DNA from: Flavobacteriales bacterium
GTDB taxonomy: Bacteria > Bacteroidota > Bacteroidia > NS11-12g > UBA955
DNA: 64,000 nucleotides
Assembly: GCA_947447955.1 (NCBI GenBank)
Contig: CANFLS010000011.1
Span: 1 to 64,000, forward strand
Reading direction: 5' to 3'
In this document: positions 3,058 to 10,421 of the stretch, in pieces
Layout: every line of letters starts with the position of its first letter
How positions within the stretch are numbered: position 1 is the first letter of the stretch
The notes under the pieces: model-generated
Seen by the model: only the letters and a program-made list of their open reading frames with translations
Told to the model about the DNA's origin: nothing
Databases searched by the model: none
Made by a program: the position numbers and the translations under genes

Positions 3058-3915
3058 GTGAAATACTATTGGAAGCTTGTTCGACCCATTAATTTACTAT
3101 TAACTGTTCTTACACAGCTCCTTTTTATATTATCTGCTTCTAGAATTAATCACAGCTTTTTACATTTCGATTGGAGCAATATCCGATTTCAAGAATCAAT
3201 CACAACCATGCTAGCTTGCGTTTTTGTGGCGGCTGGTGGTTATGTAATCAACGATATTTTCGACATAGAAACAGACCACATTAACAGACCAGAAAAGCTA
3301 ATTTTGAGTAAACATATTTCCCCTAAATCGGCCAAAATATTTTATGTAATTTTAACGTCATTGGGAATCATTTCAGGTTTTCTAACCGGCATAGGCATGG
3401 GAATACTTTGCCTTGTTTTGGCAATTCTACTTTATTTCTATTCTAGCGACTTAAAAGGCGAGATGCTACAAGGCAACCTATTAATTTCATTAATGGCAGG
3501 AATGGTGGTTTACGTTGCATCTAGAGGTGTTTTCAATGTGCAAAACACTTACTTTGCCGAATACGCAAGCGTGGCCTTTTTAATTACCATGGCCAGAGAA
3601 TTGATTAAAGACATTGAAGACCTTGAAGGAGACAAAGCTCAAGAACATGAAACGTATCCAATAATGAAAGGTATTCGAGCAACGAAAATACTGGCTGCAA
3701 TTTTTATGTTCTTTACACTTTTAATCGCAGTTTTACTCATATTTCAATCAAACGCAATTTTATTTAAAATTTTCATAACGGGATTGATCATTGCACCCAT
3801 TTTCTATTATCTGTATCTGCTTTATAAAGCAAAAGAAAAGGGACAATTCAGAAACATATCCAATTGGTTAAAATTAACAATGTTCATTGGATTGTTTTCA
3901 AGCTTATTTTGTTAA
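3058..3915 (+). CDS. UbiA-family membrane prenyltransferase
   Basis: Integral membrane prenyltransferase of 285 residues that transfers an isoprenyl chain to an acceptor. Both Asp-rich motifs that bind Mg-diphosphate are present: NDIFDIETD at residues 65-73 and DIEDLEGD at 185-192. About eight hydrophobic helices are visible. It uses a GTG start (MKYYWKLVRP) 5 nt after def. Bacteroidota homologues are often labelled geranylgeranylglycerol-phosphate geranylgeranyltransferase, but MenA/UbiA-like or heme O roles cannot be excluded from sequence, so no symbol is given. Its TAA shares the tetranucleotide TTAA with the stop of the convergent DUF3109 gene. Confidence 0.85.
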   Translation: MKYYWKLVRPINLLLTVLTQLLFILSASRINHSFLHFDWSNIRFQESITTMLACVFVAAGGYVINDIFDIETDHINRPEKLILSKHISPKSAKIFYVILTSLGIISGFLTGIGMGILCLVLAILLYFYSSDLKGEMLQGNLLISLMAGMVVYVASRGVFNVQNTYFAEYASVAFLITMARELIKDIEDLEGDKAQEHETYPIMKGIRATKILAAIFMFFTLLIAVLLIFQSNAILFKIFITGLIIAPIFYYLYLLYKAKEKGQFRNISNWLKLTMFIGLFSSLFC

Positions 3916-4490
3916 ATAACCCTGTTGCGCCAATCGCGGGCAATATCAGATAATTCTTGATACCACTCCTCACCCATTTTGCGAATCAGGGGTTCCTTCA
4001 AAAATTCATAGACTGGAATATTCAATTCCGAACCTGCGCTACAAGCATCATTGCAAATATCCCAATGGTGATAATTCATAGCAATGTAAGATCCATATTT
4101 TTTTGCTCTTATTGGATATAAATGGCAGCTAATAGGTTTCTTAAAATCAATTTTCCCATCGGTGTAAGCTTTTTCAATCCCACAGGAAGCGATTCCATTG
4201 TCCTCATAAACCACAAAGACACATTCACCAGTGGGTCTACAAACTGTAACCAAATCACCATCAATATCTCTAGTTACATAGCCATGTTCTTTAATTTCAT
4301 TGATTCCTGCTTCACTCAAATAGGGTTCAATTTTATCGTAAATATCAAGAATGATATCGGCTTCTTCCTTTAACAAAGGAGCTCCAGCATCGCCTTGAAC
4401 ACAGCATTCACCCTTACATTTATTAATTTGACATGCAAATTTTTTCTCTAAAACATCCTCAGAAACAAGGGCATTGCCAACAATGATCAT
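3912..4490 (-). CDS. Cys-rich DUF3109 family protein
   Basis: Cytoplasmic protein of 192 residues with no signal peptide, recognisable as DUF3109 by its opening [20 protein letters not shown] and many conserved cysteines: Cys20, Cys25, Cys29 and Cys30, then singles in [26 protein letters not shown] and [11 protein letters not shown]. The pattern resembles a metal or Fe-S binding protein of the CxxCxxxCC zinc/iron cluster type, which is inference. It is the last gene of a long minus-strand operon; its ATG overlaps the purE stop by 4 bp. Biochemical function is not known to me. Confidence 0.85.
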
Positions 4491-4999
4491 TTTTTGAGGT
4501 TCAAATAATTTTGATACCCAATTTCTTCAACCTTGGCGGCTTTCTCCAAAACCTCTGAATTCATTGACTCTTTAAATGCGATTACTGATTTGGCAACCTC
4601 GTTATTAGAAATTCCTATAATTTGAGCCGCCAAAATACCAGCATTGCGGGCACCATTGATAGCAACTGTTGCAACAGGAACCCCTGGAGGCATTTGAACA
4701 ATTGAATACAAACTATCTAATCCACTCATATTGCTAGATTTCACAGGAACACCAATTACGGGTAAATGCGTAAACGCAGCAATCATTCCTGGCAAATGGG
4801 CTGCGCCACCTGCACCTGCAATTACTACCCCAATTCCATTGTTATGGGCATTTTTACCATAATCGACCAAGCGATCTGGAGTTCTATGGGCTGAAACAAT
4901 AGTGAGTTCATATTCAACACCTAATTGACTTAAAATCGCGGCTGCTTCTTGCATTACTGGCAAGTCGCTGTCGCTACCCATGATAATTCCAACTTTCAT
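4487..4999 (-). CDS. purE: N5-carboxyaminoimidazole ribonucleotide mutase (class I PurE)
   Basis: Converts N5-CAIR to CAIR in purine synthesis. The 170-residue protein has the class I hallmarks: [17 protein letters not shown] at residues 4-20, the SAHRTPDRL active-site loop near 40-48, and [12 protein letters not shown]. Class I PurE normally works with a PurK ATP-grasp partner, which is not in the window. It is embedded between pssA and the DUF3109 gene with 4-bp overlaps on both sides, so this purine enzyme is co-translated with an unrelated lipid gene. No anomalies in the active-site residues. Confidence 0.97.
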
Positions 5000-5730
5000 A
5001 TTTCAGTAGATTGTTTTTGAACAGCAAAGTTCGCAATAAAAGAGATAAGTATATAAATAAAATAAAAAACTGCAACTCCAGCAGCCCCAAAAAGAGCAAT
5101 ACTTAATATTCCCAATCCCAAAAGTGCATATTTCCACTTGTTTAATGGATCGCCTCCTTTAAACTTTAAAGCCAACATTGGAAAATCTGAAATCATCATG
5201 TATGAAGCCAAAATAGGAACATAAAGCCAAAAATAATAATGGGTTAAAATTTCACGAACATCAAGTACCGAAAATGTAGGATCATTGAAAGTATGCATAA
5301 TCCAACTCCATGATGCCAATGCCAATCCGGTAATAGGTGTTGGAACTCCTAAAAATCCCGTTGTTTGTCGGGTATCAATATTGAATTTTGCCAATCGATA
5401 AGCTGCACCCAATGGAATAAACATCCACACGTAATTATTTACACAAAAACCTGAGGATGTGCAATATCCCTGATTTTGGATGTAATAACGCCAAATCAAA
5501 CCAGGAAGCACGCCAAATGTAACCACGTCGGCCATACTGTCTAATTGTTTTCCAAGTTCGCCATCTGCTTTCAACAAACGCGCTACAAATCCATCAAAAA
5601 AATCAAGAATTGCACCTAATATCATAAATAGAAACCCAGCGAATGGATTTCCTTGCATTACCATAGTAATACCCAATAAACCACATGACAAATTGCCTAA
5701 AGTGATTAAATTTGGAATTGATTTTATCAT
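4996..5730 (-). CDS. pssA: CDP-diacylglycerol-serine O-phosphatidyltransferase
   Basis: Membrane enzyme making phosphatidylserine, the precursor of phosphatidylethanolamine. The full CDP-alcohol phosphatidyltransferase signature D-G-x2-A-R-x8-G-x3-D-x3-D is present from about residue 44 ([20 protein letters not shown], then MAD). About six membrane segments are visible and the 244 residues fit the PssA type found in Bacteroidota. It overlaps purE by 4 bp and lies 26 nt downstream of the Ere-like gene. cdsA, which makes its CDP-diacylglycerol substrate, occurs separately at 50.7 kb. Confidence 0.94.
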
Positions 5731-5756: not shown

Positions 5757-7697
5757 TTAATAGTCTGAAACAACATCACTCCAAGAGAAACCTCTTAGTT
5801 CAAAATTCAATTTCAACGACAACGAAAAATTCCAAAATAACGGACCGTTCAATTTTCCGAAATTCTGATATACAAATTGGCTATGCTGGTATTTCCAAAT
5901 TTCATCTAGTGGCTGGAACATCATTTGATACGACATTCCCAAACTTGAATTTGAAAATTGATAATCACATCCAATATGTCCACCGTAAACAAATGAATTG
6001 GAAACCACATTCACTAAATTGCTATTCACTGTTGATATGTCTGGTGATTTTGGATCATTCGTTATTTTCTGCGAAAAAACACCACAATCGGCCATGATAT
6101 CAATTGAGACACGTGAAATGTCAAATGAAACACCCATAGAACCAATTGCACCTCCAGCTGAATAGTGTAAAGAACCTCCTTGTAGGTCAAGCAAAGTTTC
6201 ATCGTTACCTAGGCTGTAAAAACCCATCAATTCCGTTTTTAAAACACCATGTTGGTAACCAATACTGTGATTGAAATACCAACTTGAAGGATTTTTAATG
6301 GTATTATCAAAGTTCACTGCGCCAATGTGGTTTTGCATATTCATCAAATTATTCTTCAAAAAAGTAAGACCCAATATATTAAAAGTGATTCTACGCTTTA
6401 TAGAATGTTCACTTTCACTTGACTCACCATCGCTAATTTGGGTTGTATCACCTTTTCTAATTTTAGGCAATTCATCTATTTCTGAACCGCTATACAATAC
6501 AAATCGAAATTTCTTTTTTAATTCAACAAATTGATTGGTAGTATCATAGAGGTCGAAGAGTAAATGCATTTTTGACGAAATAGATTTTATAGATTTTACC
6601 TCTTCGCTCATTGTTGAATTTTTATCAATATCCACAGCAGACAAATCTTCACTATTATCTCTGTAAAACAGCGCTATGCTCACAATTTTAGTCGAATCTC
6701 CATTAAAATACCTGGTTCTAACTTTATTACAAACACTGCTATAATTATACCACCCACAATCGTTATTCTGTTTTGAATAAGCTACATGGCAACGACCAAA
6801 CTGTCCAAAAAACTTTTGTGTAGTATCGGCAGCCAATAATTGTTGGAATTTCCTTCCCATATATTCTTCGCGCCACAAATACTGCTGAGCATCATTTTCA
6901 AGTTTCATCCATTTGAAATACTCCTGAAGTGAAGCCAAATTGGTTTTAAATGTTTCAAACTCCGGTCCCAACCAAGTTTTATATAAAGCCAATTGCTTCG
7001 CCAAAGAATCAGCCAATGAAAGCGTATTTTTCTCATTTGGCTCGATGTAACCAGTTCCATAAGCATAATCGCCGTGCAAGCTTTTTTTACTGCTCGAACT
7101 ATAGTCGGAATGATATTCTTCATTCGCTTTCAGTAAATCTTTAGCAAGTATTTTCGCAGCATTTACAGTAGGAAATAAATCCTTTGGAATCTTTGATTTA
7201 ATGGTATTCAAATGGTCAACCAATCGCTGTAAACTCAAATCATAAAAACGTTCAACATCCAAACCATAAATATGAATCCTGTCCTTTTCCGGAACTTTTT
7301 GCATCCAATCATTCAAATGATCAAAAAACCTCATGTATTTTTCTGAGGAAATAGAATTCAACATACGACGGGCATTGGTATCATTCTTGCAAATATATTG
7401 CTCCATGTAATAAGCCCTATTTGCACTCATTTCAATGATAAAATTGCGGTAACCACAATTTTCATAAAGTCCTTTCATCATTGAAAACTCCAATCTTGAA
7501 TTCAATTCGGTCATGGAATGATTCTCCCCATCAAAAACAACCCTAGCCTTTCGTGCAGCAGCATAAATGGTCTTCATTCCTGAATCTTTGGCAAAATCAA
7601 CATGATTTAAATCTAATTTTATTCCATGAGGGACAATTTGAGCGCCTACAAATTGAATAAAACAAAAAGCCAATGTATAAACTATGCCCTTTTTCAT
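5757..7697 (-). CDS. Exported protein: erythromycin-esterase-like domain plus C-terminal barrel-like region
   Basis: 646 residues with a signal peptide ending near VGAQ (residues 17-20). Residues 50-100 match the erythromycin esterase-like pattern: GENH at 57-60 (Glu58, His60), then ENCGYRNFIIEMSANRAYYM with Glu89. Further pieces fit: RIHIYGLDVERF, REEYMGRKF at 276-284, and GRCHVAYSK with His304. From about residue 435 the chain becomes alternating aromatic/polar strands (SWYFNHSIGYQHG, GMSYQMMFQPL) ending FWNFSLSLKLNF, like an outer-membrane barrel. The enzymatic family is inferred from motif layout; macrolide resistance is not implied. Its start overlaps the preceding 607-residue gene by 4 bp. 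Substrate unknown. Confidence 0.6.
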   Translation of the reverse strand: MKKGIVYTLAFCFIQFVGAQIVPHGIKLDLNHVDFAKDSGMKTIYAAARKARVVFDGENHSMTELNSRLEFSMMKGLYENCGYRNFIIEMSANRAYYMEQYICKNDTNARRMLNSISSEKYMRFFDHLNDWMQKVPEKDRIHIYGLDVERFYDLSLQRLVDHLNTIKSKIPKDLFPTVNAAKILAKDLLKANEEYHSDYSSSSKKSLHGDYAYGTGYIEPNEKNTLSLADSLAKQLALYKTWLGPEFETFKTNLASLQEYFKWMKLENDAQQYLWREEYMGRKFQQLLAADTTQKFFGQFGRCHVAYSKQNNDCGWYNYSSVCNKVRTRYFNGDSTKIVSIALFYRDNSEDLSAVDIDKNSTMSEEVKSIKSISSKMHLLFDLYDTTNQFVELKKKFRFVLYSGSEIDELPKIRKGDTTQISDGESSESEHSIKRRITFNILGLTFLKNNLMNMQNHIGAVNFDNTIKNPSSWYFNHSIGYQHGVLKTELMGFYSLGNDETLLDLQGGSLHYSAGGAIGSMGVSFDISRVSIDIMADCGVFSQKITNDPKSPDISTVNSNLVNVVSNSFVYGGHIGCDYQFSNSSLGMSYQMMFQPLDEIWKYQHSQFVYQNFGKLNGPLFWNFSLSLKLNFELRGFSWSDVVSDY

Positions 7698-9517
7698 CTA
7701 TATTTCTGATAAATATTAATTCCTAAACCAACCGAGATATAAAGTCCTTTGTTCGACATACGGCCTTTGCCATTGATATAATTGTCGTTTTGTTTCCAAC
7801 GGTCATCACCATAATCCCATAAGTATCCCACTTCACCAATCAAATGGAATTTACTAAATCCAATTTTTCCATTCAATCCCAAACCGTATAAAAAAGAATT
7901 TTTTGTAACCTGATTTATTTCTTGAGGATTTGTAACCAACGGGTCGCCCATTTGAAATCCGTTAGGAAATGTCATACTATTTCGCATGTAATTCAAATTG
8001 GTTGTCCATGATAAACTTGCGAATCTTTTATTGAAAATATTAGATTCAGTTGAAAACATAAAATTATCGCCCCAATACGATTCGCAAATATTCAACTTTT
8101 GGTCGGTAGCCATAGTTCTGCCATATGAAAAACGATAACGGGTATTATCGATAGGCTGATATACAAATGTCAACCCAAGCGTATTTAAATGAGACAATTC
8201 TATAAGTCCCTCCGACTTTAAAACTTCATTAATTTCATTGAAATTGTTATAAAACTTCATGACAAAAGGTTCTATCCCAAATGTTTTTGAATTCAGCAAT
8301 TGTCTATAGCTATAATCATCTGCATACGCATCTTCAACTGCTGTTGTATCAGAAGCCCTATCTTCAAACACTTCCATTAATCTTTGAACGATAGGCATTG
8401 AATCTGGATTTACTTGCCAAACAATCAAATTGGTCGTGTCTCTGCTGTCAAAGTCATTAGTAGTATCTTTCGAAAAAACAGTATCGGTTTCAATCCAAAT
8501 CCTATTTACTGATGCAGAAGGATAGTACTCTTTTAACACAGTTCGGGTTGAAATTCCAATTCTTTCAGAATTCAAAACGGAATCAAAAAAGTTACCAGAA
8601 TTGTACAACATCCAAAAATTGGTTGCATTTTCATTTACTCTTTTGTCAATAAAGTTCAAATCGTCTATTAAAGAATTTACCAAGTCATCCGACACCTCCC
8701 ACACGGCATAATTGTTATAATAAACAATGTTGTTTTTAACGAGAAAATCAATGTAAGATTTTAAATCATTCCAATCGGCTTGCTTCTCTTTGTTTAATTT
8801 TCCATTCAATGATTTATCTATTGTATTTAACGAATCTAGAAAACGTTTCACAGTTGATTTGATATCAAAAGAATTTGAAATAGTCACGTATTCTGTGACA
8901 TCGCTTTCCCCGAATCTTTTTTTTCCGCTATAATCACCACTGCTATTCGACTGTAGCAAATAATTCTCAGAAGCCCTAATAGCATCTATTTGATTTTGAA
9001 TATCAATATCGATAATTGCCGAAGCATCTAGTCCCTCAAAAATATCGTCAAGAATATATACAATAGATTTATCGAGGAAATCTGAGAAAGGAGATATATT
9101 TTGAATGAATTTTGTGTGCGATAAAACTTCTGGCGACACACTATCAATAAAGTTCAGCACCATTTTTATTCTTTTGATATCGTAAAAACTATTGGTGGCA
9201 TTGTCAACCATTTTCAATAATTTGCCATATTTGATCGAATCAACATGCTTGTATTCGATTCCTTTTCTAATCAAATACGCCGAAGTCCAATCGAAATTGG
9301 CAATAATATTGTTTTGCTTTTTGTCAGACAAACTTGGCCTAATTGAACTCAAGAAAAGCGCAAAATCGCCTTCATCAATCGTATAATCTTTTACATGAAA
9401 CAAATTGAATTTTGCATCATCTAATTTTCTATTTAAAGAACCATTTTTTTGAGCTGCTAATCCCAATGGAATTAAAAAACCCAGCATTACGAACAGTCTA
9501 AATTTCATAAAATTCAT
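7694..9517 (-). CDS. Large exported protein of unknown function, barrel-like C-terminus
   Basis: Not recognised. 607 residues starting MNFMKFRLFVMLGFLIPLG with a cleavable signal peptide ending at LAAQ; the second Met at 9508 is an equally good start. The middle is helical and charged (many Asp, Asn, Lys, Ser). The last ~150 residues alternate aromatic and polar strands (YRFSYGRTMATDQKL, ASLSWTTNLNYMRNS, FHLIGEVGYLWDYGDD, GLYISVGLGINIYQKYR), typical of an outer-membrane barrel. It starts 16 nt after yicC and overlaps the Ere-like gene by 4 bp, so the two exported proteins are probably made together and may act as a pair. Localisation is inferred. Confidence 0.6.
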   Translation of the reverse strand: MNFMKFRLFVMLGFLIPLGLAAQKNGSLNRKLDDAKFNLFHVKDYTIDEGDFALFLSSIRPSLSDKKQNNIIANFDWTSAYLIRKGIEYKHVDSIKYGKLLKMVDNATNSFYDIKRIKMVLNFIDSVSPEVLSHTKFIQNISPFSDFLDKSIVYILDDIFEGLDASAIIDIDIQNQIDAIRASENYLLQSNSSGDYSGKKRFGESDVTEYVTISNSFDIKSTVKRFLDSLNTIDKSLNGKLNKEKQADWNDLKSYIDFLVKNNIVYYNNYAVWEVSDDLVNSLIDDLNFIDKRVNENATNFWMLYNSGNFFDSVLNSERIGISTRTVLKEYYPSASVNRIWIETDTVFSKDTTNDFDSRDTTNLIVWQVNPDSMPIVQRLMEVFEDRASDTTAVEDAYADDYSYRQLLNSKTFGIEPFVMKFYNNFNEINEVLKSEGLIELSHLNTLGLTFVYQPIDNTRYRFSYGRTMATDQKLNICESYWGDNFMFSTESNIFNKRFASLSWTTNLNYMRNSMTFPNGFQMGDPLVTNPQEINQVTKNSFLYGLGLNGKIGFSKFHLIGEVGYLWDYGDDRWKQNDNYINGKGRMSNKGLYISVGLGINIYQKYR

Positions 9518-9533
9518 TCTTAATATTTTTTAT

Positions 9534-10421
9534 CTAAGCCAAATTCAGAACTTGTTCTTTAATTTGTTCTAGTTTTTCTTTCATTTGAACCACTGCCTGT
9601 TGCATTGGGAAATAATTACTTTTCACGCCCATTGTATTCATTTCTCGGCCCATTTCTTGGGCTATAAAATTCAACTTACGTCCTTTCGGCTCAGCTTTAA
9701 GAGTATTAATAAAATAATTTACATGCTGATTCAAGCGTTGCTTTTCTTCCGCAATATCCCATTTATCTAGGTAAATTAAAATTTCCTGTTCCAAACGGTT
9801 TGGATCTAACAATTCTTCTTTTACATGTTCCAACAAATTGCCATAAATTCTCTCTTTCAAAGCTTCTTTTCTGGCATCTTCTTCATTTTCAACCAATATT
9901 AAATCTTGAGAAATACTTTGAACCAATTGCAATAATTTTTCACCGGTTGCAATGCCTTCAATTTCTCTGAATTTGATCAAATTATCGGCAGCTGCCATAA
10001 CCAATTCTTTGATTTGATCTTTGATATCATCAGAAATCTCGCGATCGGCTGTACCAATAACCTCTGGAACTCGGATGATTTCACGAAATGGATCTCTAAA
10101 CTCAACGTTCAAATTATTACTTAATAATTGCAATGCATCTAAATACCTTTTTGCCAAGGCTTCATTGATTTGAATTTCTTGAGATGAGTTTTGCTCATCT
10201 ACAATTTTTATATTAAAAACACATGTAATTGTTCCTCTTTCTAGTTTTTCAGAAAGCATTCTACGAACAGAAGCATCAATTTCATATAAGAATTTTGGCA
10301 AGCGAATGTCGGCCTCAAAGTATCTACCATTCAGTGCTTTTATTTCGCAGGTTGCTTTGAGTTTATCGTTTTCTATGACTGCCCTCCCGAAGCCTGTCAT
10401 ACTTTGAATTTTCATTGACAT
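9534..10421 (-). CDS. yicC: YicC family endoribonuclease-like protein
   Basis: 295-residue cytoplasmic protein with the YicC hallmarks: the N-terminal IQSMTGFGRA, the segment CEIKALNGRYFEADIRLPKF, and the C-terminal DUF1732 region PKGRKLNFIAQEMGREMNTMGVKSN. Members have been linked to RNA cleavage and stress adaptation. The first gene of the minus operon reading yicC, two exported proteins, pssA, purE and DUF3109. MSMKIQSM offers two Met starts (10421 and 10415). A near-consensus -7 box TATTTTCG lies at 10439-10432 on the minus strand, giving a leader of about 8-14 nt. Confidence 0.92.
   Translation of the reverse strand: MSMKIQSMTGFGRAVIENDKLKATCEIKALNGRYFEADIRLPKFLYEIDASVRRMLSEKLERGTITCVFNIKIVDEQNSSQEIQINEALAKRYLDALQLLSNNLNVEFRDPFREIIRVPEVIGTADREISDDIKDQIKELVMAAADNLIKFREIEGIATGEKLLQLVQSISQDLILVENEEDARKEALKERIYGNLLEHVKEELLDPNRLEQEILIYLDKWDIAEEKQRLNQHVNYFINTLKAEPKGRKLNFIAQEMGREMNTMGVKSNYFPMQQAVVQMKEKLEQIKEQVLNLA

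Follow-up and report, generated by a model that had tools for sequence, protein, structure and literature searches.

An Erythromycin-Esterase-Like Domain Followed by a Probable Outer-Membrane β-Barrel, Encoded beside an Apparently Decayed Duplicate, in a Bacteroidota Lineage

Proteins of the erythromycin esterase (Ere) superfamily are known mainly as antibiotic-resistance enzymes. Described members include EreA, EreB, and EreC as well as BcR135 and BcR136 of Bacillus cereus, which belong to PF05139 and share one domain with five catalytic residues in the same order, as can be taken from the excerpted text of PMC7979712. Herein, the catalytic residues of EreC are E47, H50, E78, R261, and H289, and the enzyme is described as metal-independent. 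Some graspetide loci contain a distant homologue of Ere whose function is unclear (PMC8939145, excerpt). An open-access literature search returned no description of an Ere protein fused to an outer-membrane barrel, or of one together with a phosphatidylserine synthase.

Outer-membrane proteins form the other side of the comparison. In OmpA and OprF, the barrel comes first and a periplasmic domain follows, and both ends of OmpA-type barrels face the periplasm. PagL and PagP are outer-membrane lipid enzymes with the active site located in the barrel itself. The window (the whole stretch of 64,000 nucleotides studied here) encodes a protein in which an Ere-superfamily domain precedes a barrel-like tail. 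It has the domain and the order of the five catalytic residues in common with EreA, EreB, EreC, BcR135, and BcR136 but, unlike these, carries a predicted signal peptide, the tail, an FGRCH motif, and the invariant cysteines C303 and C314. Compared with OmpA and OprF, the order of parts is reversed, with the enzyme domain first and the barrel last. In contrast to PagL and PagP, the active site of the fusion would lie in the separate Ere domain. A family of stand-alone proteins (A12) is homologous to the tails of the active copies along their length and is devoid of an Ere domain. Taken together, the protein is read, with a probability of roughly 0.6, as an exported Ere-superfamily hydrolase that is tethered to the outer membrane by an OmpA-like barrel, holds its enzyme domain in the periplasm, has a pseudoenzyme partner derived from a tandem duplicate, and acts on an envelope ester or a small ester. 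The features are collected in Table 1.

Table 1. Coordinates of the features described in the text; positions are those of the window unless a locus is given.
Feature	Coordinates	Strand	Description or basis
Ere–barrel fusion gene	5757..7697	minus	ORF, 646 aa
Predicted signal peptide, residues 1-20, ending VGA-Q	7638..7697	minus	read by eye
Ere-superfamily domain, residues ~21-410	6468..7637	minus	PF05139, HMM of barrel-less Ere proteins, conservation, EreC mapping
Cys pair C303 to C314 beside the catalytic His	6756-6791	minus	family-specific conservation
C-terminal tail, residues ~434-632, putative small outer-membrane β-barrel	5802..6398	minus	β moment, model, fold matches, A11 profile
Upstream paralogue	7694..9517	minus	607 aa; decayed Ere-like N-part ~25-400 and homologous tail ~405-607; putative pseudoenzyme
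CDP-alcohol phosphatidyltransferase, "PssA-like"	4996..5730	minus	PF01066; next gene downstream of the fusion, 26 bp gap
YicC-like gene, yicC	9534..10421	minus	PF03755, PF08340; heads the apparent six-gene minus-strand run
AIR carboxylase, purE-like	4487-4999	minus	in the six-gene run
DUF3109 gene	3912-4490	minus	in the six-gene run
Long Ere architecture loci	L166:3165-5627, L167:1505-3967, L168:1489-3975, L169:1374-3953	all minus	

The first-pass annotation had placed the fusion gene at the right coordinates, to which the minus strand is added here; the plus strand of 5757-7697 is interrupted by stops throughout. By eye, the hydrophobic N-terminal segment has the look of a signal peptide of the signal peptidase I type, with no lipobox Cys. 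Q20, directly after the predicted cleavage point, is nearly invariant (at least 90% of the 39 rows of alignment A1), which agrees with the Bacteroidetes Q-rule as excerpted from PMC5837995. Segment and Q20 both support the export that had been predicted for this protein.

For the domain that follows, the domain search that the first-pass annotation had proposed gives a PF05139 match over residues 79-290 with 32.0 bits, above the gathering cut-off of 26.4, and the gene is the sole PF05139 match found in its genome. The family used for further comparison comprises 47 proteins, 46 of them from 40 loci fetched from other genomes and one being the window's own; no additional relatives were found in the viral contigs scanned. 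Alignment A1 holds 39 of the 47, leaving out six near-duplicates, one odd, and one truncated protein, and A10 holds the 33 active copies that remain when six upstream copies are taken from A1. PF05139 matches 23 of the 39 A1 members. Against solved structures, the A1 profile finds 2rad/3b55 (6.7e-11), 2qgm (9.7e-9), and EreC 6xcq (1.4e-4, 24.3 bits). A second model, A9, was built from 19 tail-less Ere proteins of the phylum sample; as these were found with A1, their choice is not blind. This HMM recovers 2qgm at 2.4e-45 and EreC at 1.3e-25, and it matches the window's fusion protein over residues 6-392 (E 2.2e-23) and all 47 fusion-family proteins (median residues 5-399), six upstream copies among them. 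The direct hhalign comparison of A10 with A9 gives E 3e-32 over 319 columns. Profile homology supports an Ere-superfamily domain in the N-terminal half.

The catalytic residues proposed in the first-pass annotation (E58/H60, E89, REEYM, and H304) lie where it had put them and align with those of EreC via the 19-protein profile. Combining the A9-to-EreC and A10-to-A9 alignments, E47/H50/E78/R261/H289 of EreC correspond to E58/H60/E89/R276/H304 of the fusion, with EreC numbered by counting residues of the chain as printed, starting at H289N of the crystal mutant. All five are invariant in the aligned active copies (33/33, window included). Of the 47 fusion-family proteins, 40 contain the motif GE[NDS]H and 43 the motif GRCH; among the seven that lack the former, six are the upstream copies and one is truncated by the end of its contig. 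Around the catalytic His, the fusion family reads FGRCH, as opposed to AHNN in EreC (crystal mutant H289N). C303 and C314 are invariant in 33/33 active and 6/6 recognizable upstream copies, and a Cys adjacent to the catalytic His is seen in none of the 19 barrel-less proteins of A9. In the periplasm, the two cysteines could form a disulfide. R150 and W316 are further family-specific invariant residues.

The C-terminal tail of about 200 residues, called barrel-like in the first-pass annotation, is a real feature of the sequence. Averaged over the family, residues 430-635 show period-2 amphipathicity with a z of 5.5 and a helical signal of −2.3, whereas the Ere domain (residues 21-420) gives −0.2 for β and 2.9 for helix. 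The β-moment z ranges from 5.5 to 6.4 for the tails and from −0.2 to 0.0 for the Ere domain. The partner protein follows the same pattern (tail: β 3.4, helical −1.2; N-part: −0.5 and 2.9), and the known-barrel control PF13568 (30 members) has a β z of 7.4 and a helical z of −4.2. Structure prediction, likewise suggested earlier, yielded a low-confidence model of the tail and did not confirm the Ere half. The best of five AlphaFold2 models of the tail alone reaches a pLDDT of 55.2 (pTM 0.54), the other four 34.7-39.1, and the full-length prediction from a four-sequence alignment (window, L002-L004) has a mean pLDDT of 29.9. In the VIA fold list of this low-confidence tail model, ranks 1-31 are all membrane barrels, two of them designed. 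The designed barrel 6x9z stands at Z 13.7, and the small barrels OmpA 1qjp (127 residues, 2.5 Å), OprF 4rlc, and OmpW 8qxp each at 13.3; PagL and PagP are also among the matches (Z 11.2 and 9.9). Some soluble barrels occupy lower ranks at Z ≤8.1, e.g. VtrA/VtrC with 8.1 and nitrophorin with 6.4. In Foldseek, OmpA is the best match of the tail model at E 2.9e-3, with no match under E 0.001.

Sequence comparison of the tail with described barrels gave the following. No homology to PF13568 was detectable: there is no Pfam match, hhalign against the 30 members gives E 0.0046 with a probability of 7.6%, and a second hhalign gives E 0.0019 with 14%, worse than the reversed control at 7.9e-4. The tail profiles have no significant match among PDB sequences. 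An assignment to DUF4421 (PF14391) was dropped, as it matched 1/39 members and 1/38 genomes, none over the cut-off. The eight-row tail alignments A5 and A7 were likewise dropped because partner tails are badly aligned in them, and A8 (partner C-terminal fragments only) was used instead. Given the strand periodicity, the family homology, and a low-confidence model that matches membrane barrels, the tail is very probably, if not provenly, a small outer-membrane β-barrel. The fusion would hence be attached to the outer membrane; of the earlier proposal of an outer-membrane-attached Ere hydrolase, the Ere homology stands and the attachment stays conditional. Since both ends of OmpA-type barrels are periplasmic, the Ere domain would be located in the periplasm.

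Relatives of the tail exist as separate proteins. Seven tail-like proteins of 211-344 aa were found by A1 outside the order and align to the tails at E 2.2e-13 (hhalign); for the active-copy tails against the 15 stand-alone barrel-like proteins of A12, the value is E 1.6e-14 over 211 columns. The tail profile A11, which includes the window's own tail, matches 86 of 395 phylum-sample genomes with up to eight candidates scored per genome, and most of the open frames concerned are about 240-290 aa long. The analysis thereby exposes a barrel-like family without a name, matched in 85/394 sampled genomes outside the order. None of 14 stand-alone proteins scanned exceeds a Pfam or NCBIfam cut-off, and one has a sub-threshold OMP_b-brl match (E 6.6e-5). 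An HMM of A12 alone matches 20/47 fusion proteins (the window's tail is not among them) and 13/18 partners, including the window's partner at E 0.0017. A match of A12 to PF13568 is not counted, since E 3e-4 over 73 N-terminal columns leaves no useful margin over the reversed-tail control of 7.9e-4. Members such as L087, L099, L103, and L188-L198 represent widespread stand-alone barrel-like proteins of about 240-290 aa. At G183:C1:642530-643504, two close tail-family matches are seen, each in a 439-aa open frame and possibly a double barrel in one ORF, and genomes related to G183 contain single tail-family matches in frames of about 438-444 aa.

The gene upstream of the fusion matches no Pfam or NCBIfam model at E ≤1, and the A9 Ere HMM matches none of the 18 partners of alignment A2 (three contig-end fragments and one spurious match were left out, and L058, found beside its gene, was included). 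Aligned as whole proteins by hhalign, partners and active copies match at E 3.7e-26 over 556 columns. As the common tail alone could carry such a match, tails and N-parts were compared apart. The partner tails align to the active-copy tails at E 2.6e-16 over 191 columns (reversed control 7.9e-4), which upholds the barrel-like end that the first-pass annotation had noted in this gene. The remainder, which it had missed, is related to the Ere domain and decayed: the N-parts align at E 4.7e-8 over 171 of about 390 columns with a reversed control of 0.14, and the crossed parts give 0.68 and 0.98. Six recognizable upstream copies bridge the two groups, their N-parts reaching E 1e-71 to active copies and 5e-10 to the N-part of the partners, and thus make the homology of the enzyme part plain. 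Homology to the fusion in both halves, as judged from these profile comparisons, is newly recognized here.

The six bridging copies keep E58 in 1/6, H60 in 0/6, E89 in 2/6, R276 in 6/6, and H304 in 3/6; in the window's partner, the R276/H304 region is not reliably aligned. In a quick tree of 57 proteins, unrooted and with long branches flagged, one branch with a support of 84 separates 33 active from 24 upstream copies, which is consistent with a single duplication behind both. Upstream copies are less alike than downstream ones in 8/8 genome pairs compared. Between the window and three close relatives, dN/dS is 0.05-0.08 for the Ere domain, 0.12-0.21 for the partner N-part, and 0.11-0.17 for the tails, with some dS values above 1. 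These low ratios mark the partner as a maintained protein under purifying selection and not a dead gene. The upstream gene is evidently, from its sequence, a tandem duplicate of the fusion with a decayed Ere active site: after duplication, the active site would have been lost while the barrel and part of the scaffold were retained. Its product is probably a pseudoenzyme partner or regulator.

Both genes lie in a run of six minus-strand genes (yicC, the 607-aa gene, the fusion, PssA-like, purE-like, and DUF3109) with gaps of −4 to +26 bp, which may be co-transcribed as one operon. "PssA-like" is herein the name given in this analysis to the gene that matches PF01066. A homologue of it follows directly downstream on the same strand at 34 of the 40 fetched loci, namely 34/35 loci of the window's family as opposed to 0/5 of a second family. 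The paralogue lies directly upstream of the fusion gene at 26 of the 40, is absent at 13, and one locus is at a contig end. At six loci of single-copy genera, the upstream gene is on the opposite strand and the PssA-like gene is still downstream. The adjacency of fusion and PssA-like gene may be inherited synteny. Relatives of the window's protein occur in 71 of 108 genomes of its order (own genome included, some matches partial). In the phylum sample, PF05139 is found in 57/395 genomes, and both PF05139 and the tail in one ORF only in the window's genome, none being detected in the 394 others with at most three or at most eight candidates scored per genome, so that absence is not proof. These 394 are taken as outside the order because their handles were new after an order search that returned 108 of 150 genomes asked for. 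As to the taxonomic spread, which the earlier annotation had wanted surveyed, the fusion has so far been detected in this one Bacteroidota lineage only. With relatives in 71/108 genomes, and a gene order that is conserved at most of the loci fetched for the window's family, the fusion looks like a core gene and not an acquired resistance gene.

The mechanism put forward for EreC offers an analogy for how the protein may act. H60, assisted by E58, would activate water held with E89 and H304; R276 would stabilize the transition state. Hydrolysis is argued for by the full Ere catalytic set, which the active copy keeps strictly and its twin has lost. A likely substrate would be an ester or lactone of the envelope or its vicinity. 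Because of the conserved gene order with the PssA-like gene, an envelope lipid or lipid-linked ester is a reasonable guess; the neighboring genes suggest, rather than show, an envelope-lipid context. A more specific version, in which both proteins are anchored by barrels of the unnamed family and form an outer-membrane enzyme/pseudoenzyme pair that works on such a lipid or ester and is co-expressed with the phosphatidylserine-synthase-like enzyme, is speculative and on balance doubtful. If true, outer-membrane maintenance would have a new kind of enzyme in this pair, and Ere-type enzymes a native role in the envelope.

Other readings change either the task of the Ere domain or the nature of the tail. 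The domain might be a ligand-binding (e.g. haem-binding) receptor of the wider Ere/ChaN fold at the outer membrane, instead of a hydrolase. The excerpts of PMC7979712 give haem-binding ChaN the same fold as Ere, one of 39 members matches PF04187 at E 0.045, and the invariant R150, C303, C314, and W316 hint at a pocket that differs from that of EreA-C. Against it stand the five EreC catalytic residues, invariant in 33/33 copies, and the weakness of the PF04187 match, seen in 1/39 members compared with 23/39 for PF05139; this reading is unlikely. That the protein is a macrolide-resistance esterase displayed at the envelope would fit the membership in the Ere superfamily with identical catalytic residues; it is nevertheless highly improbable in view of the distance to EreC (24.3 bits), the exchange of AHNN for FGRCH at the catalytic His, and the core-gene look.

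As for the tail, the order of signal peptide, enzyme, and C-terminal barrel is what an autotransporter-like protein would have, with the Ere domain as the passenger that its barrel brings to the cell surface. The best matches of the tail profiles are indeed the EspP autotransporter barrels, at a non-significant E of 0.031, and EspP and BrkA are present in the VIA list of the low-confidence model at Z 7.1 and 6.7. Small barrels match far better at Z about 13, though, most homologues of the tail stand alone and measure about 240-290 aa, and the tail looks too short for the 12 strands usual in autotransporter translocator barrels; surface display is therefore improbable. A similarly low chance is given to a soluble β-rich tail, e.g. 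for binding or sorting. The low model confidence, the soluble barrels further down the fold list, and the lack of a curated barrel family matching the window's tail would speak for it, but the first 31 ranks belong to membrane barrels, the period-2 amphipathic pattern resembles that of known barrels, and one stand-alone relative has the sub-threshold OMP_b-brl match mentioned above.

The preferred reading of a tethered, exported hydrolase places an intact Ere catalytic set in an apparent core gene of a Bacteroidota lineage, and the fusion together with its frequent decayed duplicate points to a native, non-resistance role of the Ere superfamily in the envelope. Long Ere proteins elsewhere, from open frames of 550 or more, were considered as possible independent Ere–barrel fusions. 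The proteins of about 574-660 aa that were looked at carry N-terminal extensions, of ~250 residues in L083, L088, L097, L136, L138, L158, L159, L161-L163, and L165. The C-terminal region of L157, 189 residues long, does not look like a barrel by eye, and in genome G462, whose long Ere protein has 603 aa, the tail profile finds no match. Four proteins of ~820-860 aa, with extra C-terminal sequence but no barrel by eye, were also rejected as barrel fusions; in one of them, L096, Pfam shows a CarboxypepD_reg-like domain below its cut-off. Another long Ere architecture, of 820-859 aa, occurs in four genomes of the same class (L166-L169 in Table 1): behind an exported Ere domain come a CarboxypepD_reg-like domain, which Pfam sees below its cut-off in the first of the four only, and one more C-terminal region.
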